From positions 62,001 to 126,000 of the forward strand of contig JAJYIU010000003.1 of the NCBI GenBank assembly GCA_021789895.1: DNA of 64,000 nt, written 5' to 3'. Below are positions 20,206 through 31,294 of the stretch, one piece after another. Under the pieces are notes generated by a model, which saw only the letters and a program-made list of their open reading frames with translations, searched no databases and was not told the DNA's origin. Origin of the DNA: Acidobacteriota bacterium (GTDB lineage: Bacteria > Acidobacteriota > Terriglobia > Terriglobales > SCQP01). The position numbers were made by a program, and so were the translations under genes. Every line of letters begins with the position of its first letter. Position 1 is the first letter of the stretch.

Positions 20206-20940
20206 ATGGGGAGCTGCCGGAGTCACTTGGCCATAGTGGCGTCATTGGGCGCATTCTCCGCCGCCCTGGCGGCGCAATCCGCCGCCGGCGTGCAGCGCGC
20301 CCGCAATGCCTCCGGGGTCTGGAGTTTCGCCGAAATCCGCGCCCTGCCCGCCGCCGCCCCGGCCACGGCGGTCAACCATGCCGCCCCGGCTTCCGACCCG
20401 GCACCGGCCGGCGCGCCCGCGGCCGCAGCCGCGCACGGCGGCCCGCAGGCGCGCATCCGCCGCCTGCTCGACCGCGCCGCCCGCCGCTACCGCCTCAGTC
20501 CCCGGCTGGTGCGGGCGGTGGCGCGCCAGGAGTCGGGTTTTTTACCGCGCGCGCTTTCTACGAAAGGCGCCATGGGAGTGATGCAATTAATGCCCGGCAC
20601 GGCGCGCGCGCTGCGCGTCCGCCGCCCCTTCGACGCGGCGCAGAACATTGACGGCGGCGTGCGCTTTCTGCGCGATCTGCTGGCGCGCTATCACGGCAAC
20701 CGCCGGCTGGCGCTGGCGGCTTACAACGCCGGCCCGGGCGCGGTGGACCGCTACCGCGGCGTGCCGCCGTATCGGGAAACACGCGGCTACGTGCGCGCCA
20801 TCCTGGCCCACCTGCGGCTTCCTGCATCTTCCGGCGGGGGCTCGCGCCTGGCCGCGGAGCGGCCGCGGAAGCGCTCCGCGCCGCCGGTCGTTCTCCGGCG
20901 CGGTGCCCGCGGCAGCCTGATCTTCAGCAACACCGATTGA
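20206..20940 (+). CDS. Exported lytic transglycosylase (SLT domain)
   Basis: Peptidoglycan-cleaving enzyme acting in the periplasm. The 244-residue protein has a signal peptide (about 1-25, HLAIVASLGAFSAALAAQ), an Ala/Pro-rich linker to about 85, and an SLT domain (about 90-205). Catalytic Glu is in VARQESGFLPRALSTKGAMGVMQLMP, followed by AQNIDGGVRFLRDLL and the substrate-binding RLALAAYNAGPGAVDRY with YRETRGYVRAIL. All signature blocks of the family are intact. The ATG at 20206 is preferred over an upstream TTG because it gives a normal signal peptide. The C-terminal 40 residues are basic and low complexity. It lies 78 nt after the exporter operon and may be cotranscribed. Confidence 0.92.
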   Translation: MGSCRSHLAIVASLGAFSAALAAQSAAGVQRARNASGVWSFAEIRALPAAAPATAVNHAAPASDPAPAGAPAAAAAHGGPQARIRRLLDRAARRYRLSPRLVRAVARQESGFLPRALSTKGAMGVMQLMPGTARALRVRRPFDAAQNIDGGVRFLRDLLARYHGNRRLALAAYNAGPGAVDRYRGVPPYRETRGYVRAILAHLRLPASSGGGSRLAAERPRKRSAPPVVLRRGARGSLIFSNTD

Positions 20941-21047
20941 TCCGCGCGGCCCGGCGGCGGCGAGCCGCAACCGGGCCACACCCGGCCCGGAATCGCGTAC
21001 AATGCAGCCCTTACGCCGCCCGCCTCGGCGGCATTGCCAAGGAACAA

Positions 21048-22787
21048 ATGTCTCAACCGCCAGCCGCCTCATCCACGCCAGCTCCCGCCGCGCCGCAGGC
21101 GCAACGCCCGCCCAAAATCTACGACGTCGTCGTGGTGGGTTCCGGAGCTTCCGGCGGCTGGGCCGCCAAGCGGCTCGCCGAAGCCGGCCTGGAGGTGGCG
21201 CTGCTCGACGCCGGTGGCCCGCAGCGCGATGCCAACTTCAGCGAGCATCTGCCGGCGGCGCGGCTGCGCTATCGCGATCTGGCGCCCGAACTGCTGCTCC
21301 AGCGGCGTCCGGTGCAGGCCAAGGTGTACGCCTGCATGGAGTACAACGCCGATTGGTTCTGCGACGATTTCGACGAGCCCTACACCACCGCTCCCGGGAC
21401 CGCCTTCAACTGGATGGGGCGGTTGCGGGTGACCGGCGGGCGCACCAACGTCTGGGGGCGGCAGAGCTATCGCATGAGCGACCTCGATTTCAAGGCCGCC
21501 TCGCACGACGGCTACGGCGTGGATTGGCCGCTCGATTATCGCGCGCTGGCCCCCTATTACGACCAGGTGGAAGCGTACGTGGGCATCACCGGCATGCGCG
21601 AAGGCCTGGCGCAGCTACCCGACGGCAAGTTTCAACCGCCGATGGGGCTGACCTGCGCCGAGCAACTGCTGCGCGAGCGGCTGCAGGCGCGCATGCACCG
21701 CGTGGTCACGCTCGGCCGCTCCGCCAACCTGACGCGCGGCCTCAACGGCCGCGCTCCCTGCCACTACTGCGGCCCCTGCGAGCGCGGCTGCGCCACCCAC
21801 TCCTATTTCAATTCCTTCTTCACCACCGTGCGCGACGCGCTGGCCACCGGGCGCTGCACCCTGGTGTCCAACGCGCTGGTGGCGCAAGTGCTGATGGACG
21901 ACCGCCGGCAGCGGGCGCGCGGCGTGCTCTACGTTAATCGCGCAACCCGCCGCGCGCGCGAAGTGCGAGCACGGGCGGTGGCGCTCTGCGCCCAGTCGCT
22001 CGAGTCGGTGCGCATCCTGTTCAATTCCGCCACCCCGCGCCATCCCCGCGGCCTGGCCAATTCTTCCGGGGTGCTGGGCCACTATCTGATGGACCATATC
22101 ACCGGCGGCGGCGCCAACGGCGAGCTACCCGAGCTGGCCGCGCCGCCGGCGATGAACCGCCCCCACCGCCCCGACGGCATTTATGTTCCGCGCTTCCGCA
22201 ATTTATTCACCGGCCCGCAGCAGCGCGAATATCTGCGCGGCTTCGGCTACCAGGGCGGCGGCGGCGCCGGCGGCTTCAACTTCAACGCTCCCGGCTTCGG
22301 CGCCGAGTACCTGCGCGGCTTGCGGCGCAGCGCCAGCGCCTACGTCGGCCTGGGCGCCTTCGGCGAATGCCTGGCGCGCTGGGATAATTACGTCGAGATC
22401 GATCCGCAGCGGGTGGACGCATACGGCGTGCCGGTGCTCCGCATTCACATGCGCTACGGCGACAACGAAATGGCCATGCTGCAGGACATGGCCGCCTCGG
22501 CGGCGGAAATGCTGGAAGCCGCCGGCGCGCGCAACGTGCGTCCCCAAGTCCGCCCCGGCACTCCCGGCGACGCCATCCACGAAGTCGGCATCGCGCGCAT
22601 GGGCGACGACCCGCGGCAGTCGGTGCTCAACCGCTGGCAGCAGGCGCACGATGTGGTCAATTTGTTCGTGATGGATGGCGCCGGCTTTCCCTCCACCGCC
22701 TGCCAGAATCCCACCCTCACCATCATGGCGCTGGCGGTGCGCTCCTGCGATTACCTGCTCGAGCAGCGCCGCCGCGGCGAATTGTAG
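21048..22787 (+). CDS. GMC-family FAD oxidoreductase
   Basis: FAD enzyme of the glucose-methanol-choline group that oxidises an alcohol or sugar hydroxyl. The 579-residue protein starts at ATG 21048 with AAGGA 5 nt upstream. After a 25-residue Pro/Ala tail comes the Rossmann fold (about 28-60, YDVVVVGSGASGGWAAKRLAEAGLEVALLDAG), then RVTGGRTNVWGRQSYRM, a CHYCGPCERGC cluster-like segment of four Cys, and the C-terminal GMC block (HEVGIARMGDDPRQSVLN ... VMDGAGFPSTACQNPTLTIMALAVRSCDYL). It resembles the large subunit of gluconate-2-dehydrogenase-type enzymes but, unlike the paralogue at 60765, has no small-subunit gene next to it and no Tat leader. Catalytic substrate unknown. Confidence 0.9.
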   Translation: MSQPPAASSTPAPAAPQAQRPPKIYDVVVVGSGASGGWAAKRLAEAGLEVALLDAGGPQRDANFSEHLPAARLRYRDLAPELLLQRRPVQAKVYACMEYNADWFCDDFDEPYTTAPGTAFNWMGRLRVTGGRTNVWGRQSYRMSDLDFKAASHDGYGVDWPLDYRALAPYYDQVEAYVGITGMREGLAQLPDGKFQPPMGLTCAEQLLRERLQARMHRVVTLGRSANLTRGLNGRAPCHYCGPCERGCATHSYFNSFFTTVRDALATGRCTLVSNALVAQVLMDDRRQRARGVLYVNRATRRAREVRARAVALCAQSLESVRILFNSATPRHPRGLANSSGVLGHYLMDHITGGGANGELPELAAPPAMNRPHRPDGIYVPRFRNLFTGPQQREYLRGFGYQGGGGAGGFNFNAPGFGAEYLRGLRRSASAYVGLGAFGECLARWDNYVEIDPQRVDAYGVPVLRIHMRYGDNEMAMLQDMAASAAEMLEAAGARNVRPQVRPGTPGDAIHEVGIARMGDDPRQSVLNRWQQAHDVVNLFVMDGAGFPSTACQNPTLTIMALAVRSCDYLLEQRRRGEL

Positions 22788-22828
22788 CGGCGGCGGGGCC
22801 GGAGTACACTGGTTTGTTCGCGAAGCCG

Positions 22829-23266
22829 ATGCGTACCTGGCCTCCCCGCCGCGTGCTATACTTCCGCCGCGCGTTATGGCGCCGCCGCCGGGCGCTGCCC
22901 GCGGCAGGGCTGGCGCTCGCGCTGCTCGCCGCCGGTCTGGCCGGCTGCCGCCGGGGCGCGCCGCGCGGGAACTGGAGCCTGACGCTTTCCACCGTGCCGG
23001 CCGTGCCGGCCGCCGGCCAGTCCACCCGCTTCGTGCTGCACGTCGTCCGCGCCGGCGGACGGCCGCTTTCCGGCGCCTCGGCGCAGCTCTCGCTCAAGAT
23101 GACCTCGATGGATATGGGCGCCAACGTGGTGCAGTTGGCGCCGCAGGGCGGCGGCAACTACGCCGGCAGCGGCCAGTTCACCATGTCCGGCGACTGGGAT
23201 TGCCAGGCCGCGGTCGAAGCCGGCGGCGTCACCCGCCAGCGCACCTTTCACTACAAAGTCGAGTGA
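22829..23266 (+). CDS. Small lipoprotein with a YtkA/FixH-like domain
   Basis: A 145-residue protein with an Arg-rich start, one hydrophobic segment and a lipobox LAAGLAGC (about residue 41), so probably lipid-anchored. The mature part is a beta-rich domain: NWSLTLSTVPAVPAAGQSTRFVLHVVRAGGRPLSGASAQLSLKMTSMDMG, ending with GDWDCQAAVEAGGVTRQRTFHYKV. The Ser/Asp-rich Met-containing SLKMTSMDMG motif and the final strand match the YtkA/FixH-like family, seen with copper and respiratory proteins. The start is uncertain: ATG 22829 was used, and GTG 22853 is an alternative. It sits between the GMC oxidoreductase and the cytochrome/ferredoxin/NrfD genes and may belong to their redox chain. Confidence 0.72.
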   Translation: MRTWPPRRVLYFRRALWRRRRALPAAGLALALLAAGLAGCRRGAPRGNWSLTLSTVPAVPAAGQSTRFVLHVVRAGGRPLSGASAQLSLKMTSMDMGANVVQLAPQGGGNYAGSGQFTMSGDWDCQAAVEAGGVTRQRTFHYKVE

Positions 23267-23467
23267 CGGCAAAAACGGCGCGCGTTTTAATCCAGCTTAC
23301 AGATCGCCTCGCTTTGACTCACATTCGGCCGTGATCCGCGGCATAGCCGGGCATTGCGGCTAACTGGTATCTCCATGGATGTGGCTCACAGCCGTGAGCC
23401 GCGGCCGGGGGCCGGCGCGTGATCGGGCGCACACCCGGCCGCCGCGGCTGCGGCCGGAGGAAAGGCG

Positions 23468-23941
23468 ATGAACCGCTGGCGGAATGGCGAACATTTGCTG
23501 CGCGTGGCGCTGGTTTACGGCCTGGGCGTAGTGGCGTTCGTGCTGCTGCGGATGGCGCTGGTGCCGCGCAGCTTCGGCGAATTCGGCCATTACCGCGGCA
23601 ACGCGATCGCGGAAACCGCCCGGCAGCGGCCGGTTTTCGCCGGCCACCAGGCCTGCAACCTCTGCCACTCCGACGTCGCCGCCCTGAAGCGCACCGGCAT
23701 CCATGCCGGGGTGCACTGCGAGGCCTGCCATGGGCCGCAGGCGGCGCATGCGAGCGATCCGGGCTCGGTGCGGCCGGCGCGGCTGGCCACCGCCCGGCTG
23801 TGCGTGCGCTGCCATGCCGCCAATCCCGCCCGCCCGGCTGCGTTTCCGCAAATCGATCCGCGCCGGCACAACCCCGGGCTGCCGTGCGAGACCTGCCATC
23901 CGCCGCACAATCCACTGCAGTTCCTGAGCCAGCATTCATGA
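23468..23941 (+). CDS. Membrane-anchored tetraheme c-type cytochrome
   Basis: Electron-transfer protein. The 157-residue product has one N-terminal membrane helix (about 10-32, LLRVALVYGLGVVAFVLLRM) and four CxxCH heme sites: CNLCH (63-67), CEACH (84-88), CVRCH (112-116) and CETCH (140-144). Extra His residues (His41, His60, His79, His134, His147) could be distal ligands. It resembles the NapC/NrfH-adjacent or NrfB-like small multiheme subunits. Its stop overlaps the ATG of the ferredoxin gene by 4 nt, so it belongs to a three-gene membrane redox operon. The 200 nt upstream hold a GGCTCAC / GTGAGCC hairpin at 23383-23400 but no promoter I can define. Confidence 0.92.
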   Translation: MNRWRNGEHLLRVALVYGLGVVAFVLLRMALVPRSFGEFGHYRGNAIAETARQRPVFAGHQACNLCHSDVAALKRTGIHAGVHCEACHGPQAAHASDPGSVRPARLATARLCVRCHAANPARPAAFPQIDPRRHNPGLPCETCHPPHNPLQFLSQHS

Positions 23942-24672
23942 ACCTCACCCGGCGCCAATGCCTGTTGCTGCTGTTGCCGGCCGCCGCCGCGGGCTGGGAG
24001 GCGTTGCAAGCCGGCGCCCCCGAGCGCGCTCCCAACTACGACAAGACCCAGCACTGGTGGGGCATGCTGCTGGATATTTCCAAGTGCATCGGCTGCGGCA
24101 ACTGCGTGCGCGCCTGCGCCGCCGAAAACCAGGTGCCGCCCGGCTATTTCCGCACTTGGGTGGAGCGCTACCGGGTGCGCGACGAGGACATGCCCTACCC
24201 CCAGGTGGACTCGCCCGACGGCGGCATGCACGGCTTCCCGCCGATTCCCGCCGATGGGATGAAGGAATTCTTCGTCCCGAAAATGTGCAATCACTGCGCC
24301 GACTCGCCCTGCACCCAGGTCTGCCCGGTGGGCGCGACCTTCATCACCCCCGACGGCGTGGTGCTGGTGGACAAGGAATATTGCCTGGGCTGCCGCTATT
24401 GCATACAGGCCTGCCCCTACGGCTGCCGCTTTTTCAACCCGGTCACCCATACCGCGGAAAAATGCACCCTCTGCTATCACCGGATCACCAAGGGGCTGAC
24501 CACGGCCTGCTGCGAAGCCTGTCCCACCGGAGCGCGCCAGCTCGTGGATTTGAAGAACCCGAACGATCCCATCCATGCCTTTCTCCGCACCCACAACGTG
24601 GCGGTGCTCAAGCCCTACCTGGCGACCGGCGCCAAGGTGTTCTACAACGATCTGGACGGTTCCGTGCGTTAG
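23938..24672 (+). CDS. Tat-leader four-cluster [4Fe-4S] ferredoxin subunit (HybA/NrfC/DmsB type)
   Basis: Periplasmic electron-transfer subunit. The N-terminus MNLTRRQCLLLLLPAAAAGW carries a twin-Arg and hydrophobic core. The 244-residue protein binds four clusters through CIGCGNCVRAC (50-60), CNHCADSPCTQVCP (117-129), CLGCRYCIQACP (149-159) and CTLC ... CCEAC (176-195); sixteen cluster Cys are all present. This pattern is that of the iron-sulfur subunits of molybdopterin oxidoreductases and hydrogenases. It overlaps the tetraheme cytochrome gene by 4 nt and the NrfD gene follows after 9 nt. No catalytic molybdopterin subunit is encoded beside it, so the electron acceptor or donor is open. 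Confidence 0.93.
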   Translation: MNLTRRQCLLLLLPAAAAGWEALQAGAPERAPNYDKTQHWWGMLLDISKCIGCGNCVRACAAENQVPPGYFRTWVERYRVRDEDMPYPQVDSPDGGMHGFPPIPADGMKEFFVPKMCNHCADSPCTQVCPVGATFITPDGVVLVDKEYCLGCRYCIQACPYGCRFFNPVTHTAEKCTLCYHRITKGLTTACCEACPTGARQLVDLKNPNDPIHAFLRTHNVAVLKPYLATGAKVFYNDLDGSVR

Positions 24673-24681
24673 GAGCGAAGC

Positions 24682-25875
24682 GTGCAAGTGCAAGGCTACA
24701 TGTATCCGAACGAATACGAGCTCGCCTGGAGCATCCTGATCGTGGTCTATCCCTACATCACCGGCCTGGTGGCGGGCGCCTTTATCCTGGCATCGCTCGA
24801 GCGCGTGTTCCATGTGGAGGCGGTGAAGCCCACCTACCGGCTGGCGCTGCTGACCGCGCTGGCCTTTTTGCTGGTCGCGCCGCTGCCGCTGCAACTGCAC
24901 CTCGGGCATCCGGAACGCTCCTTCGAGATGTACCTGACGCCGCACCGCACCTCGGCCATGGCCATGTTCGGCTTCGTCTATCTCTGGTACCTGATGGCGG
25001 TGCTGGTGCTGGAAATCTGGCTCGATTACCGGCGCGATATCGTGCTGCTGTCGCAGCGGACGCGGGGCTGGCGGCGGGCGATTTACCGCGCGCTCACCCT
25101 GGGCTCGTCCAACATCAGCGCCGGCGCGCTGGCGGTAGATGAGCGCGCCGGCTACATCGTCACCGTGGTCGGCATTCCCTCGGCGCTGCTGCTGCACGGC
25201 TACGTCGGCTTCATCTTCGGCTCGGTCAAGGCCAACCCCTGGTGGTCGTCGCCGCTGATGCCGGTGGTGTTCATCTTCTCGGCCATGGTGTCGGGCATCG
25301 CCGCCGTGCTGCTGATCTACATGTTCACCACCTGGGTGCGGAAGCGCGCGCTCGACATGCGATGTCTCGACACCATCGCGCGCTACCTGCTATACACCTT
25401 CCTGATTGATTTCAGCCTGGAAATGCTCGATCTGGTGCACCGCATCTACGAGGCCAATGAATCGTTTCGCAGCCTGGATTTCATGGTGCATACCCGGCTT
25501 TATCTGTCGCAAATCGTGATCCAGATCTACATTGGCACCCTGCTGCCGCTGGCGCTGCTGGGGCTGGTGCAGGTGATCAAGCTGGGCGCGACCGCGCGCA
25601 AACGCATTTACGCCTGCGCCGGCAGCCTGGCGCTGGTGGGCATCTTCGCCATGCGCTGGAACGTGGTGATCGGCGGCCAGTTGTTTTCCAAGAGTTTTCT
25701 CGGTTACACCACTTACAAACTGGCGTTTGCGACGCGCGAAGGGCTGCTGCCGGCGATCCTGCTGATGCTGCTGCCGCTGCCCATCCTCTGGGGATTGACC
25801 AAGCTGCTGCCGCCCTGGCCGGAGCGCGAAGCGGAGCCGGCCGGCGAAAACCGCGCCGCGACCCTCAGCCTTTAG
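24682..25875 (+). CDS. NrfD/PsrC-family membrane quinone-interacting subunit
   Basis: Integral membrane subunit that exchanges electrons with the quinone pool. The 397-residue protein starts at GTG 24682 and has about eight membrane helices, beginning with AWSILIVVYPYITGLVAGAFIL. The LQLHLGHPERSFEMYLTPHRTSAM segment matches the conserved LGxPxRF region of NrfD proteins near the quinone site. A last helix (AILLMLLPLPILWGLTKLL) precedes a charged tail. It is 9 nt downstream of the ferredoxin gene, so the cytochrome, ferredoxin and NrfD form one operon. Without a catalytic subunit this could be a quinol:cytochrome module, as in the alternative complex III or Qrc families, or pair with an enzyme encoded elsewhere. 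Confidence 0.9.
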   Translation: MQVQGYMYPNEYELAWSILIVVYPYITGLVAGAFILASLERVFHVEAVKPTYRLALLTALAFLLVAPLPLQLHLGHPERSFEMYLTPHRTSAMAMFGFVYLWYLMAVLVLEIWLDYRRDIVLLSQRTRGWRRAIYRALTLGSSNISAGALAVDERAGYIVTVVGIPSALLLHGYVGFIFGSVKANPWWSSPLMPVVFIFSAMVSGIAAVLLIYMFTTWVRKRALDMRCLDTIARYLLYTFLIDFSLEMLDLVHRIYEANESFRSLDFMVHTRLYLSQIVIQIYIGTLLPLALLGLVQVIKLGATARKRIYACAGSLALVGIFAMRWNVVIGGQLFSKSFLGYTTYKLAFATREGLLPAILLMLLPLPILWGLTKLLPPWPEREAEPAGENRAATLSL

Positions 25876-25984: not shown

Positions 25985-26506
25985 ATGTCCGGCTCCAGCA
26001 CTAACCCGGCCCATGACGCCGCCTTCGCCGAAACCTATCGCAGCCTGCACTCGCTGGCGAATGCTTACATGCGCCGTTTCCCGAACGCCGCCACCCTGCA
26101 GGCCACCGCGCTGATCCACGAAGCCTATCTGAAGCTGGCCCACGAAGCTAAAGCGTTTGCGGACCCGGATCATTTCGTCCGCACCGCCGCCCTGGCCATG
26201 CGCCAGATTCTGGTGGACCATGCCCGCGCCCGGCAAAGCCAAAAGCGCGGCGGCGGGGTTGAACAGGTTACCCTCGACGGCAACGAAATTGCCATGCCCG
26301 GGGGCGTGGATGTGCTGCTTATTCACGACGCCTTGCTACGCCTGCAAGAATGGGATCCCCGCCAGGCCCAAATCGTCGAACTGCGCTGTTTTCTGGGGCT
26401 CAGCGTAGCTGAAACCGCGCAGAACCTGCATATTTCCGAGGCCACGGTCAAGCGCGACTGGGCGATGGCTCGCGCCTGGCTGGTACGGGAACTCAAAGCG
26501 CGATGA
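25985..26506 (+). CDS. ECF-like sigma factor of the TIGR02999 type
   Basis: Alternative RNA polymerase sigma factor, 173 residues. The start MSGSSTNPAHD is preferred to an upstream in-frame TTG because TIGR02999 proteins start just before this helix. Region sigma2 holds ALIHEAYLKLAHEAKAFADPDHFVRTAALAMRQILVDHARAR, and sigma4 holds the helix-turn-helix LSVAETAQNLHISEATVKRDWAMARAWL. The acidic DAED-type patch that canonical ECF sigma factors carry in region 2.2 is replaced by Thr37-Leu-Gln-Ala-Thr41. It overlaps the Ser/Thr kinase gene by 4 nt. In the EcfP/PpkT2 pair of Vibrio, a kinase adds the missing negative charge; the same scheme is plausible here. Confidence 0.9.
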   Translation: MSGSSTNPAHDAAFAETYRSLHSLANAYMRRFPNAATLQATALIHEAYLKLAHEAKAFADPDHFVRTAALAMRQILVDHARARQSQKRGGGVEQVTLDGNEIAMPGGVDVLLIHDALLRLQEWDPRQAQIVELRCFLGLSVAETAQNLHISEATVKRDWAMARAWLVRELKAR

Positions 26507-28728
26507 CTTCGGAGGATTGGGCTCGCCTGAAAATCTGGTTTGGCGAAGCTTTAGCCGCCGGCCTGGAGCAGCGCGCCCGGATTCTGGCCCGCGTCCGCGA
26601 CGAATCCCCGGTATTGGCCGCCGAACTCGAATCGCTGATTGCCACCCACGAATCCCATTCCCTCGCCACGATCGAACTCACCGTTCGCCCCCTGCCCACG
26701 CCGGAAATGTTTCCGCAAGGGTTGCCCTCCGGCTCGCTCATCGGCCCCTACCGCGTCTTGCGCGAGTTGGGGCGCGGCGGCACGGGTATCGTCTTTCTCG
26801 CCGAGCGCGGCGACGACGAGTTTCACCGCCCGGTGGCGCTCAAGTTGCTGCGTTTTACCTGGCCGCGGCAGGAAGCCAGCCCTCCTTCCGGCCTGACCCT
26901 CGAGCGCGGCTCGCTCGCGCGCATGCAACACGGCAATATCGCCATATTGCTGGATTGGGGCGTCAACGACGAGGGCTTGCCCTGGCTGGCGACGGAATTT
27001 GTCGAAGGCGAGCCGATCAGCGATTTTTGCCGCTCGCGCCAACTGAACGAGCCCGCCATCCTCGAGCTGTTTCTGCAAGTCACCGGCGCGGTGGCGTATG
27101 CCCATCAGCGCGGAGTGATTCACCGCGATCTGAAGCCCGGCAACATCCTGGTCAACCGCGAGAGCCAGGTCAAGCTGCTCGACTTCGGGATCGCCCAGCC
27201 GGCGGAAGCCGCGCCGGAGGACTCGGCGGACCACAAATTCACTCCAGTCTTTGCCAGCCCGGAGCAGCTCGAGGGCCAATCCGCCACCCCGGCCAGCGAT
27301 GTTTATTCGCTGGCAGTGGTGCTTGGGCAACTGCTCTCGCAGACCCTTCCGCCAGACCTGGCCCGCATTTCTCCCGGCCTGATCCCCATTTTGCGCCACG
27401 CCCTCGAGCCCGAGGCCCGGCGCCGCTACGCATCCGTGGACCTTTTTCAAGCCGACCTCAAACGTTATGTCCAGCATCGTCCCCCGCACGCCGTTCGCAT
27501 CCCCTGGATGGGCCGCGCCCAGCTCTTTTTCCGCCGCAACCGTGCGCCAGCGGCGGTGGCGGCCCTAGCCGTCGCGGCCATGGCCGGGCTGGGCTTCTGG
27601 TTCTGGAAATCGGCCCCGCCGGCCGCCGCGCCACCGGCGCGCCCGCAGGCCGCGATCGCGTTTATGGGACAGCCGCTGCACATGAGCGCCACCTTGCCCT
27701 TGCGGGTCGCCTGGCCGCGCGGAGCGCGCGTGCACTCGGTCGAGGTGGTGACGCAGGGGGTGCCCAACCTGGATTTCACCAGCCCCGATACGGCCGCTTG
27801 CCGCGGCGATTTCCGCGCGGGGGCGAGCTGCGTGATGCATATCCGGTTTGAACCCACCGCCCGGGACCGGCGTTTGGGCGCGGTGCTGTTCCGGGACAAA
27901 TCCGGAAAGATCATTGACACCCAATTCATCTTCGGCGGCGGGTCCTGGAAAAAGTCCATACAGCTCAGCGCCACTCCCTCGCGCGTCATCTCCGGCCTCA
28001 ACTTCGCGCGCGGGCTGAGCACGGATGGCCGGGGGAATGCCTATTTCATCGAGGCTCGTGGAGACACGCTGGACGAAATTCCGGCCGGTAGTTCCCGCAA
28101 GCGCATCCTGGCGCGCATGCCGCTGCTGTTTCAGAGCGGCGCCACCGCGGTGGATGGGGCGGGGAATCTATATTTCAGTTCCGCCGCCGGTCACGCCGTC
28201 TATGAAATGCAGAACGGCGCGCCCCGGCTGATCGCCAGCTTTCCTACCAGCGTCCTGCTCGACGATAACCTGTCGGTGGACGGCGCCGGCAATCTTTACA
28301 CCAGCGATCAGGAAGGCGGCATTTATATGATCGCCGCCGGCTCGCGCCGCGTGTCCCTTCTTTACCCCGGCAACCAGGGGCACCGTTTCGTCGGCATGGA
28401 CGCGGACCTCGACGGCACCCTGGACTGTGTCGATTATTCGTTCAATATGCTGTATCAACTCGCCGTGGGAAGCTCGCAGTTGCAGCGGGCGATCGGGCCG
28501 GACGGCCACTTGAACCAGCCCCATGCGATTCTCGTGCTGGGGGGCGGGCTGTTGCTCATCGGCAACGATGTCCCCAACGGGCATATACTCAGCTACCCTT
28601 CCTATCGCCAGCCTTCCGTGCTGCCGGCGCGGGGCAGTTTGAGCCTCGCACTTTATAACGGGTCTCAACTTTTTTCGGTGGTCAACAACAGCCAGGTTTA
28701 CGTCTACCCCGTCCGCCCCGCACTCTAG
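26503..28728 (+). CDS. Membrane Ser/Thr protein kinase with C-terminal NHL-like propeller
   Basis: Hanks-type kinase, 741 residues. Kinase domain (about 80-325): glycine loop GRGGTGIV (90-97), Lys114 in VALKLL, catalytic HRDLKPGN (207-214), DFG (227-229), and a SPEQ activation-segment end (APE-like, about 252-255). A single membrane helix spans about 349-368. The C-terminal region (about 375-741) is extracytoplasmic. It starts with a short beta-sandwich-like part, then repeats LSTDGRGNAYF, AVDGAGNLYFSSA and SVDGAGNLYTSDQ of NHL type, a likely ligand-sensing propeller. It is translationally coupled to the preceding sigma factor, suggesting the sigma factor or a linked protein is its substrate. 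N-terminal 75 residues are helical and of unknown role. Confidence 0.95.
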   Translation: MTSEDWARLKIWFGEALAAGLEQRARILARVRDESPVLAAELESLIATHESHSLATIELTVRPLPTPEMFPQGLPSGSLIGPYRVLRELGRGGTGIVFLAERGDDEFHRPVALKLLRFTWPRQEASPPSGLTLERGSLARMQHGNIAILLDWGVNDEGLPWLATEFVEGEPISDFCRSRQLNEPAILELFLQVTGAVAYAHQRGVIHRDLKPGNILVNRESQVKLLDFGIAQPAEAAPEDSADHKFTPVFASPEQLEGQSATPASDVYSLAVVLGQLLSQTLPPDLARISPGLIPILRHALEPEARRRYASVDLFQADLKRYVQHRPPHAVRIPWMGRAQLFFRRNRAPAAVAALAVAAMAGLGFWFWKSAPPAAAPPARPQAAIAFMGQPLHMSATLPLRVAWPRGARVHSVEVVTQGVPNLDFTSPDTAACRGDFRAGASCVMHIRFEPTARDRRLGAVLFRDKSGKIIDTQFIFGGGSWKKSIQLSATPSRVISGLNFARGLSTDGRGNAYFIEARGDTLDEIPAGSSRKRILARMPLLFQSGATAVDGAGNLYFSSAAGHAVYEMQNGAPRLIASFPTSVLLDDNLSVDGAGNLYTSDQEGGIYMIAAGSRRVSLLYPGNQGHRFVGMDADLDGTLDCVDYSFNMLYQLAVGSSQLQRAIGPDGHLNQPHAILVLGGGLLLIGNDVPNGHILSYPSYRQPSVLPARGSLSLALYNGSQLFSVVNNSQVYVYPVRPAL

Positions 28729-29104
28729 CCCAGGCGAACTTTCCTCCGAAACCAACATTGGCTGCTTCCGCTTTTCTCATAGAGAGATAAGCAGTTAGTA
28801 GTCCAATCAGATGAGTGGTGAAGTGATTTCCGGCAGGTTTCGCTGGCGCCGTGAGCTTTCGCGGGCGTTTTTCTCGTTATCCCAAATGAGCGTTATCTGG
28901 CTGCGGCTGGTCACTTCTCGCCGTGAGCCAGGGCACAAATACGTCCGCCAGGCCGGGAATCCCCCCGGAAGTTCACGGCCCGGCGGTGCAAGCTCACATG
29001 CCGCGACGCCACGGGTTTCATGTCCATCCGGGAATTCGCCGGCTCAGGGCGAGGTGTGCCTTCAGATGGCATTCCACCCGGACGGCAAAAACGGAGGAAA
29101 CAAC
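28729..29104. other. Intergenic region upstream of the FG-GAP gene, 376 nt
   Basis: Non-coding in the sense that no frame has a plausible ribosome site before 29105. It is unusually long for this genome and rich in short GC stems (for example the CCGGGAATCCCCCCGG stem near 28962). I could not match it to a known riboswitch or RNA class; the c-di-GMP-I core was looked for and not found. It may be a structured leader of the exported protein. Confidence 0.35.
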
Positions 29105-31294
29105 ATGCAGAATTGGAACACTAGCTCCAGTAGCGTAAGTCGAGATCTGGCGAAGTTTTACGGATTCCTGGCGATTTTGGTTTTGGCATTGATGGCCTTG
29201 CCGCGCCCGGCGCAGGCGCAGGCGCAATTTCAATCGCAGGTCTTGATTTCCGGCTTCGGCAATTCCTATGTCGGCGCGACGGGCGATCTCACCCACAACG
29301 GGAATCAGGATATTGTCGGATTCTACGGTCCGAAACTGATCGTGGCGCTTGACGACGGCACGGGTCATTTCCCAACCATCAATACAATCCCTTTGCCCTG
29401 GAATGTACAACGAGTCGCGCTCGCCGATATGAATGGCGATGGCAACCTGGATATCGTACTGGTTGCGAACATACCCTACCAATCCGGGGTGGTGGCGGTG
29501 ATGCTCGGCGATGGGCATGGCAGTTTCGGGCCGCCGATCACTTATCAACTGCCTGCGGTCAACGGGGCGCCGGTCTACTTGCAAAGTCTCGCGATTGCCG
29601 ATTTCAACGGCGATGGGCGGCCGGATGTCGCCGTGGTCAGCACCAACCAGGTCGGCTATACTCCTGGCGGACAAGCTTGGGTTTTATTTAACCTGGGCAA
29701 TGGCGCGTTGTCGGCGCCATCCACGCCGGTATTCCAAAACTATATGGGCTATGGCAGCGCCCCTGCCCTGGATGTCGCCGCCGGCGATCTGGATGGCGAC
29801 GGGCATCAGGATATAGTGCTGGTCGGCGGGGTGAACGATTTTCAAGATTTCCCACCCGTGGTCGTGCTATGGGGACAAGGTAACGGCAGCTTTACGCCGA
29901 TGAATTTGAATTTTGCCCTTGGCACTTCGGGCCATCAACTCTCTCATAGCGCCCAAGGCATCGCTTTGGCCGATCTGAGCGGGGATGGCAGGTTGGATGT
30001 TTTGGTATCCTCCAGCTACTATGCTCCGGGAACGGGCGGATATATCGGATATGCGGGGGGCAGCCTGACAGTATTTCCGAACCTAGGCTCACGCAGTTTC
30101 GGCGCCCCGGTTTCCTACGTTGGGCCTACCTATCCGTGGAAACCTCAGGTCGGCGATTTAAACAATGATGGACATCCCGACGTGGTGATCGCCGGCGGCC
30201 AATACGGCAATCTCGTCTATTACCTAAACGATGGCTCCGGCGGGCTGCAAACCCCCAATACCATCTGGACCAAGGGTGGGGAATCGGCGGTGTTGGGCGA
30301 TTTCAGCCACAGCGGTTCCGGAACGCAAGGCATCGCGTTTGGCACCCCTTCCAATGGCACTTACATCATTCTTAATGGTTCGGCCATCGCAGCCTCGACT
30401 ACCACCGTGGCGGCTTCGGCCAATCCTTCGGTTTATGGACAAGCGGTGACTTTCACCGCAACCGTCACCGGCACGGGCAGCAATACGCCCACCGGCACTG
30501 TCACCTTCAAGGACGGCATGGCCACGCTCGGCAGCGTCAGCTTGAATGCGGAGGGACAGGCGGCGTTCACGACCGCTTCGCTAGCGGTCGGCGCGCATGC
30601 CATCACCGCCAGCTACGGCGGCGACGCTCGCTTTGCCGCCAGCGCCTCCACCGCATTCACCCAGACGGTGAACAAGGCGGAGACCTCGCTGGCTTTAACC
30701 AGCTCGGCGAATCCCGCGCTGCTGAACCAGCCCATCACGCTTACCGCCATGCTCTCCGTGGTTGCTCCCGGAGCGGGATCGCCCACCGGGACGGTGCAAT
30801 TCCTGGTGGATGGCTCGCCCAGCGGCGCCCCCGTCAGCCTGGCCGCCGGCAAGGCCAGCCTGTCGCTGTCGAATCTAAGCGTGGGCTCGCATACCATCTA
30901 CGCCGATTACAGCGGGGACGCGGATTTTCTCTCCAGCACCGGAGAGCTCTCGCAAACGGTGGCATACCGTTTCCTGGGCCTGTATGCGCCCTATTCCGCG
31001 CTGCGGAAATACCAGCCTGGTCAAGCCATCCCGTTGATCTGGCAGTATGCCGATTATTCGGGCCAGGTGGTGAACTCGAGCGGCGCCGAGCCCGCGGTGA
31101 GCTTTTCCGCCTGCGCCGGCAGCGCCGTCCCGGCTTCCGCCGCGGGGGCCAGCGGCTATCAGTACTCCAGCCTGACCAATACCTGGCAATTCAACTGGAA
31201 AACCACCGGCGTCACCGCCGGTTGTTACAACCTGACCATCACCAGCATGAAAACGGGGCAAAGCAACGGCCCGTTTCCGGTGCAATTCCGCTAG
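29105..31294 (+). CDS. Secreted FG-GAP/VCBS repeat protein with two Ig-like (Big_3_5-type) domains
   Basis: A 729-residue extracellular or surface protein. The ATG at 29105 is chosen because GGAGG lies 7 nt upstream and a clear signal peptide follows (about 15-40, FYGFLAILVLALMALPRPAQAQAQ). Residues about 45-430 hold FG-GAP/VCBS repeats with Ca2+-binding-like DxNxDG loops (ADMNGDGNLDIVLVANI, ADFNGDGRPDVAVVS, GDLDGDGHQDIVLVGG, ADLSGDGRLDVLVSSS, GDLNNDGHPDVVIAGG), as in integrin-type propellers. Two Ig-like domains follow (about 435-525 and 528-620; TPTGTVTFKDG, SPTGTVQFLVDG), each ending in SYGGD or DYSGD. The C-terminal 100 residues contain two Cys (SFSACAGS, TAGCYNL). Role is probably adhesion or polymer binding; unproven. 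Confidence 0.9.
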   Translation: MQNWNTSSSSVSRDLAKFYGFLAILVLALMALPRPAQAQAQFQSQVLISGFGNSYVGATGDLTHNGNQDIVGFYGPKLIVALDDGTGHFPTINTIPLPWNVQRVALADMNGDGNLDIVLVANIPYQSGVVAVMLGDGHGSFGPPITYQLPAVNGAPVYLQSLAIADFNGDGRPDVAVVSTNQVGYTPGGQAWVLFNLGNGALSAPSTPVFQNYMGYGSAPALDVAAGDLDGDGHQDIVLVGGVNDFQDFPPVVVLWGQGNGSFTPMNLNFALGTSGHQLSHSAQGIALADLSGDGRLDVLVSSSYYAPGTGGYIGYAGGSLTVFPNLGSRSFGAPVSYVGPTYPWKPQVGDLNNDGHPDVVIAGGQYGNLVYYLNDGSGGLQTPNTIWTKGGESAVLGDFSHSGSGTQGIAFGTPSNGTYIILNGSAIAASTTTVAASANPSVYGQAVTFTATVTGTGSNTPTGTVTFKDGMATLGSVSLNAEGQAAFTTASLAVGAHAITASYGGDARFAASASTAFTQTVNKAETSLALTSSANPALLNQPITLTAMLSVVAPGAGSPTGTVQFLVDGSPSGAPVSLAAGKASLSLSNLSVGSHTIYADYSGDADFLSSTGELSQTVAYRFLGLYAPYSALRKYQPGQAIPLIWQYADYSGQVVNSSGAEPAVSFSACAGSAVPASAAGASGYQYSSLTNTWQFNWKTTGVTAGCYNLTITSMKTGQSNGPFPVQFR

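Follow-up and report, generated by a model that had tools for sequence, protein, structure and literature searches.

A predicted ECF43-like sigma factor/kinase pair in an acidobacterium and a kinase N-terminal module that tracks sigma genes

In a 64,000-nt stretch of an Acidobacteriota bacterium genome (GenBank GCA_021789895.1, contig JAJYIU010000003.1; hereafter the window, with positions counted from its first nucleotide), an extracytoplasmic function (ECF)-type sigma factor gene (25985..26506, forward strand, 173 aa) overlaps a membrane Ser/Thr (Hanks-type) kinase gene (26503..28728, forward strand, 741 aa). Judged from their sequences, the two are best read as a further member of the ECF43-like sigma factor/kinase pairs represented by EcfP/PknT of Vibrio parahaemolyticus and EcfK/PknS of Xanthomonas citri. 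We consider it likely (probability about 0.72) that they form a one-to-one signalling pair of this kind, in which phosphorylation by the kinase would activate the sigma factor, its predicted target. In this reading, in which phosphorylation and its effect are carried over from EcfP and EcfK, the neutral patch (QATA) in region 2.2 would leave the resting sigma factor a poor binder of core RNA polymerase. The membrane kinase would be activated when its extracytoplasmic Ig/propeller domain senses a ligand or a condition at the surface; its N-terminal module is proposed to hold the sigma factor during phosphorylation by the catalytic domain at Thr41 and probably also at Thr96. These phosphates would supply the negative charge required at the beta' clamp, the sigma factor would join RNA polymerase and its regulon would be switched on, with no anti-sigma factor required. 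Activation of sigma factors by kinases is a form of signalling discovered only recently and still a young topic, and the pair offers a clean test case for a charge switch, with no acidic residue in the patch, a single copy and a candidate second site at the EcfK spacing. Neither such a sigma/kinase combination in acidobacteria nor a docking role for the kinase N-terminus was found described in the literature searched, which took in few subscription papers.

The identification of an ECF-like sigma factor by an earlier sequence-only reading of this DNA was confirmed, as were the coordinates, the strand and the 4-nt overlap. The protein matched PF07638 (E 4e-45; 154.4 bits against a curated cut-off of 21.1) and TIGR02999 (183.8 bits against 126.15), and it is the only TIGR02999 member above the cut-off in the source genome. 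Its structure model had a predicted local distance difference test score (pLDDT) of 71.6 and gave a weak match to ECF sigma factors in the PDB (best Foldseek E 0.0027). Full-length orthologous pairs were found in four relatives (loci L054, L055, L056 and L057), with identities to the window sigma factor of 81%, 79%, 78% and 70% and to the window kinase, over the matched length, of 72%, 73%, 79% and 55%, respectively; these kinases could be aligned through the end of the sensor. The ATG at 25985 is the start position shared with the four orthologues, and the sigma stop overlaps the kinase start in the tetranucleotide ATGA (26503..26506, forward strand), an overlap retained in 5/5 pairs as ATGA in four and GTGA in one. 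Because the four full-length orthologous pairs keep the overlapping start together with Thr37, Thr41 and Thr96, each invariant in 5/5 orthologues, the pairing stands above chance. In a search of 297 genomes drawn from the phylum, with about 11 candidates scored per genome, at least 124 genomes carried the TIGR02999 family at E 1e-25 or better, which is a lower bound. From this search and from the cut-off matches we assembled 130 distinct family members found by hidden Markov models (HMMs; L009-L053, L146-L174 and L233-L288), comprising 44 places over the cut-off, one weaker place and 85 of the best-scoring places of the 297-genome search, so that divergent members are under-represented. The pattern-found loci L066-L145 were omitted from the family statistics, their search pattern having contained the patch. 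In 109 of the 130 members, the sigma gene had a kinase open reading frame (ORF) no more than 1.5 kb away on its own strand.

The DAED motif of the ECF paralogues in the same genome aligned to Gln39-Ala40-Thr41-Ala42 of the window sigma factor (26099..26110, forward strand). In each of the seven paralogues, no fewer than two of the four patch positions are acidic (DAED in three, EAED in two, LAEE and DTPD), whereas the window protein has none, which bears out the absence of the acidic patch claimed earlier. That claim placed the patch at the TLQAT stretch, residues 37-41; the stretch is present, but the acidic positions are 39-42, and Thr37 falls outside them as the first residue of helix H37-53 in the structure model. 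Its conservation (Thr in 112 and Ser in 11 of the 130 family members) is probably due to a helix-cap role. The position of Thr41 (codon 26105-26107, forward strand) holds Thr in 120 members, Ser in four and Ala, Asn or Gly in six. Both Thr37 and Thr41 had been put forward as phosphosites; by its place in the sequence it is Thr41, not Thr37, that is the counterpart of the experimentally phosphorylated Thr, because EcfK Thr51 and the ECF43 consensus Thr are both third in the patch. Two ECF43 traits are thus found in the window, namely the replacement of the DxxD acids of region 2.2 by QATA with Thr41 third (consensus QTTA in the cited part of PMC13147305) and a Hanks-type kinase gene adjoining the sigma gene with a 4-nt overlap in 5/5 pairs. 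A further candidate, passed over by the sequence-only reading, is Thr96 (codon 26270..26272, forward strand) in the linker between the sigma2 and sigma4 domains, a linker that is disordered in the structure model (residues 89-107). Thr96 lies 55 residues beyond Thr41, the same spacing as that from Thr51 to Thr106 in EcfK.

The passages of the EcfK paper cited here describe direct phosphorylation of EcfK by PknS at Thr51, within a QATE patch, and at a second site, Thr106 (PMC13147305). EcfK and the window protein therefore share a phosphorylatable Thr third in the patch and a second Thr 55 residues further on, but EcfK retains one acidic patch residue. In the V. parahaemolyticus pair, EcfP has the patch STTA and is activated when PknT phosphorylates its patch Thr, according to the cited passages (PMC8999054; PMC8103513). 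Like the window protein, EcfP has a patch free of acidic residues, as given in two reviews and in the EcfK paper. The earlier comparison with EcfP fits the sequences, although the kinase named PpkT2 there is called PknT in these passages. The window sigma factor also resembles the kinase-adjoining TIGR02999 (Sig-70_X6) sigma factors of Acidobacteriota and other phyla in family, in patch (QPTA, QTTA or QATA) and in having a kinase with the same N-terminal module.

The kinase matched PF00069 (E 2e-34), with a catalytic domain at about residues 82-345 (26746..27537, forward strand) in which the catalytic residues are in place: the Gly-rich loop 90-95, Lys114, Glu134, Asp209, Asn214 and the DFG motif at 227-229, with Thr247 in the P+1 loop. 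Its closest solved structure was 9EED (E 7e-37, alignment spanning residues 4-307), which is PknS 1-364 of X. citri (PMC13147305, in part). A single transmembrane stretch at about residues 350-368 (27550..27606, forward strand; hydropathy maximum 1.86 at residue 350) is followed by an outer region of 369 residues. This extracytoplasmic sensor (residues 373-741; 27619..28725, forward strand) comprises an Ig-like part, assigned by eye from the sequence, and then a candidate NHL-like propeller. The propeller proposed earlier is supported at the level of sequence: phmmer aligned residues 496-687 to the designed six-bladed Pizza6 propellers (E 6e-21), while the Pfam scan gave no NHL match in the kinase protein and the single-sequence structure model of the ectodomain was unreliable (pLDDT 41). 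The kinase is built like PknS in having an N-terminal segment, a single membrane span and an outer domain, but it carries the Ig/propeller sensor where PknS, whose regulon takes in a type VI secretion system, has periplasmic TPR repeats.

The wider result, beyond the pair itself, concerns the N-terminal segment of the kinase, which the sequence-only reading did not mention. This module (residues 1-49; 26503..26649, forward strand), for which we propose a sigma-docking role, follows the pattern W..v..lF..al....R..fl......d..l..ev..LL over the first ~50 kinase residues, and none of 37 members had a Pfam match to it. A profile of the 37 segments had PknS (9EED) as its top PDB match (E 3.6e-8, PknS residues 7-50), so that the window segment and that of PknS are homologous and the module spans phyla; it is also present on kinases of Pseudoalteromonas and Eleftheria operons. 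In the cited part of PMC13147305, PknS is described as having an 83-residue N-terminal segment, invisible in the crystal and predicted to be helical, that 'may play a functional role'. A PF00069 search of four genomes gave 35 kinases, five of which adjoin a TIGR02999 sigma gene; the module was present in 5/5 of these and in 0/30 of the others, as scored with model nt4 (similar to the model A3 used below) at HMMER cut-offs, which a very divergent module could escape. In 60 genomes, the A3 profile gave 47 module matches, 42 of them with a sigma gene above the cut-off no more than 4 kb away, where ~0.2 would be expected, and 41 of the 44 sigma genes had a module within 4 kb. One further match, in genome G034, stood beside a frame-split sigma gene, the TIGR02999 gene of locus L295 being divided into two overlapping frames. 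The remaining four (L290, L312, L314 and L318) lacked a sigma match out to about 1.5 kb, and these kinases are candidates for acting on a distant sigma factor.

The module was not confined to one branch of kinases. Mapped onto a 72-domain kinase tree, its distribution needed eight changes, at least five of them forced by well-supported branches, compared with 23.6 for shuffled labels; several kinase lineages carry it. Over 161 pairs of loci, module distances correlated with sigma distances (r 0.517) more strongly than kinase-domain distances did (0.308) or than the module did with its own kinase domain (0.206), and among distant pairs (sigma proteins over 40% different) the three values were 0.399, 0.105 and 0.046. 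Even the best kinase-domain window of equal length remained below the module (0.378, and 0.188 for distant pairs), and the difference between the sigma-module and sigma-kinase domain correlations in distant pairs had a bootstrap 95% range of 0.20-0.39. The contrast was larger in the HMM-found subset (100 pairs), where the module-sigma correlation was the stronger at 0.629 against 0.357, and smaller in the pattern-found subset (61 pairs; 0.554 against 0.495 overall and 0.147 against 0.002 for distant pairs). Most simply read, this co-inheritance at the sequence level would mean that sigma factor and module work together, the first most likely being the ligand and the second its dock. A broader form of the proposal is that the PknS-type N-terminal segment is dedicated to docking sigma factors and marks out, across phyla, the kinases that phosphorylate them; the module and its sigma factor would be one evolutionary and physical unit repeatedly grafted with different kinase domains and sensors. 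We hold this tentatively, at a little under even odds. If it is true, the sigma kinases of a genome would be recognisable by the module alone, including those away from sigma genes, and sensors could be rewired by swapping the parts behind it; the module would in any case offer a testable answer to how kinases find their sigma factors.

The main competitor to docking is that the module follows the sigma gene merely by proximity, with kinase domains and sensors swapped behind it by recombination and with no contact with the sigma factor. The arrangement of the genes lends this some weight, as 36 of the 47 module matches lie directly downstream of the sigma gene on the same strand, and the first kinase-domain windows correlate with the sigma factor at r 0.36-0.37 against about 0.2 for later ones, as expected of a proximity effect. 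The module-sigma correlation can partly come from neighbouring coding stretches, which weighs against docking. Two weaknesses of the module survey are the possible escape of divergent modules from the 0/30 count and the training of model A3 on sigma-linked kinases, some of them within the 60 searched genomes, by which it favours linked kinases by construction. Proximity alone appears the less likely reading to us, since the far end of the sigma factor tracks the module as the near end does (r 0.40 and 0.37), with no gradient, unlinked kinases lack the module, and six of the 42 sigma-neighbouring module kinases keep it while lying on the opposite strand or further away. At L030, L041 and L050 the module kinase is on the strand opposite to the adjacent sigma gene, and the pairing therefore outlives the loss of the operon layout. 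On an Eleftheria terrae plasmid (L340, 4534-8507), a sigma gene is followed by two kinases, of which the first, adjacent to the sigma gene, lacks the module and the second carries it.

It is also conceivable that the kinase doubles as an anti-sigma factor, with the module keeping the sigma factor sequestered as long as the kinase is inactive. Anti-sigma factors are typically membrane proteins that have a helical module at their cytosolic N-terminus and whose genes adjoin those of their sigma factors, and the window kinase has this layout. In line with the ECF43 trait of having no anti-sigma gene nearby, zf-HC2, the sole anti-sigma type searched, had no match on the window contig, and the scanned neighbours of the pair (20937-25875 in part, and 29105-31294) belong to other families; among the eight other PF07638 sigma genes in the genome, four (C21, C75, C22 and C13) have a zf-HC2 match immediately beside them. 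A zinc-finger anti-sigma origin of the module was considered and rejected, as the module and the zf-HC2 profile built from the anti-sigma domains of related genomes showed no relation (hhalign probability 1.1), although a short helical domain could escape such a profile comparison. Moreover, EcfK activity depends on PknS in the cited passages of PMC8999054, which speaks for an activating kinase, and we regard the double role as improbable.

The activation of the sigma factor by the adjoining kinase without an anti-sigma factor, as suggested by the sequence-only reading on the model of EcfP, fits the uncharged patch, the nearness to PknS and the lack of a zf-HC2 match, but the part played by Thr41 is less certain. 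In the parts of PMC13147305 drawn on here, EcfK with Thr51Ala is functional in X. citri and the Thr51Ala/Thr106Ala double variant is not, and by analogy Thr41 may not be the sole or decisive switch in the window protein, to which a two-site model may apply. Further points against a charge switch at Thr41 come from the family. Nine of the 10 members lacking Thr at this position still have a kinase ORF beside them, and a compensating charge, seen as Glu at patch position 1 in 4/5 non-Thr members of the first 74 (L009-L053 and L146-L174), was found in 0/5 among the later 56 (L233-L288). This idea was dropped; the charge-for-Thr association over all 130 had p 0.0003, a value that includes the 74 rows from which the idea was derived. 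One could accordingly place the decisive switch at Thr96, as in EcfK Thr106, with Thr41 secondary or structural, and the invariance of Thr96 in the orthologues and the EcfK variants favour this. We think it rather unlikely, since only 75 of the 130 members have Thr or Ser at the linker position, and 17 have Asp or Glu, against Thr or Ser in 124 at the Thr41 position, and since phosphorylation of EcfP was reported, as given in the same source, at the patch Thr only. Still less probable is a kinase with other substrates and a sigma factor regulated through its synthesis only, with other residues holding core polymerase and the neutral patch simply tolerated. Other polar residues near EcfK Thr51 have been modelled in contact with beta' (PMC13147305, in part), which would allow this, but the overlap conserved in all five pairs, the kinase linkage across the family and the direct phosphorylation of the EcfK relative argue for the phosphorylation-activated pair.

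Among the 60 genomes, the full-length outer region of the kinase (57-80% identity) was found only in the five orthologous kinases, which sets these apart from the other TIGR02999-linked kinases. Distant copies of the sensor (32-40% identity), two in tandem, occur in giant secreted proteins of two pair-bearing genomes, one encoded by a 2165-aa ORF (L197, 2597-9095, reverse strand) and the other by a 1650-aa ORF (L198, 1040-5993, forward strand), and 35 of the 60 genomes had some sensor match, the weaker ones being widespread. The kinase sensor therefore seems to have been acquired from a secreted propeller-protein family. In both giant proteins, MBG-like repeats, recognized by eye, follow the tandem sensor copies.

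Downstream of the kinase, a gene encoding an FG-GAP/Ig-like secreted protein (29105-31294) was considered as a third operon member and rejected, as the neighbours differ in L055 and L057. Its seeming conservation was limited to L056, from the same genus, and to a distant FG-GAP protein in L054; the position is taken by an elongation factor P-like gene (by eye) in L055 and by unrelated genes in L057. The 376 nt that precede it (28729-29104), which may hold a leader or promoter, include 314 bases 81% identical in L056; the remaining 58 of the 60 genomes searched gave no match, and Rfam gave none for a structured leader. A sigma-70 promoter scan of the region returned nothing. Upstream of the sigma gene, 23468-25875 encodes a multihaem cytochrome, a 4Fe-4S ferredoxin-like frame (by eye) and an NrfD-like membrane subunit, and these genes are matched in sequence at L056.

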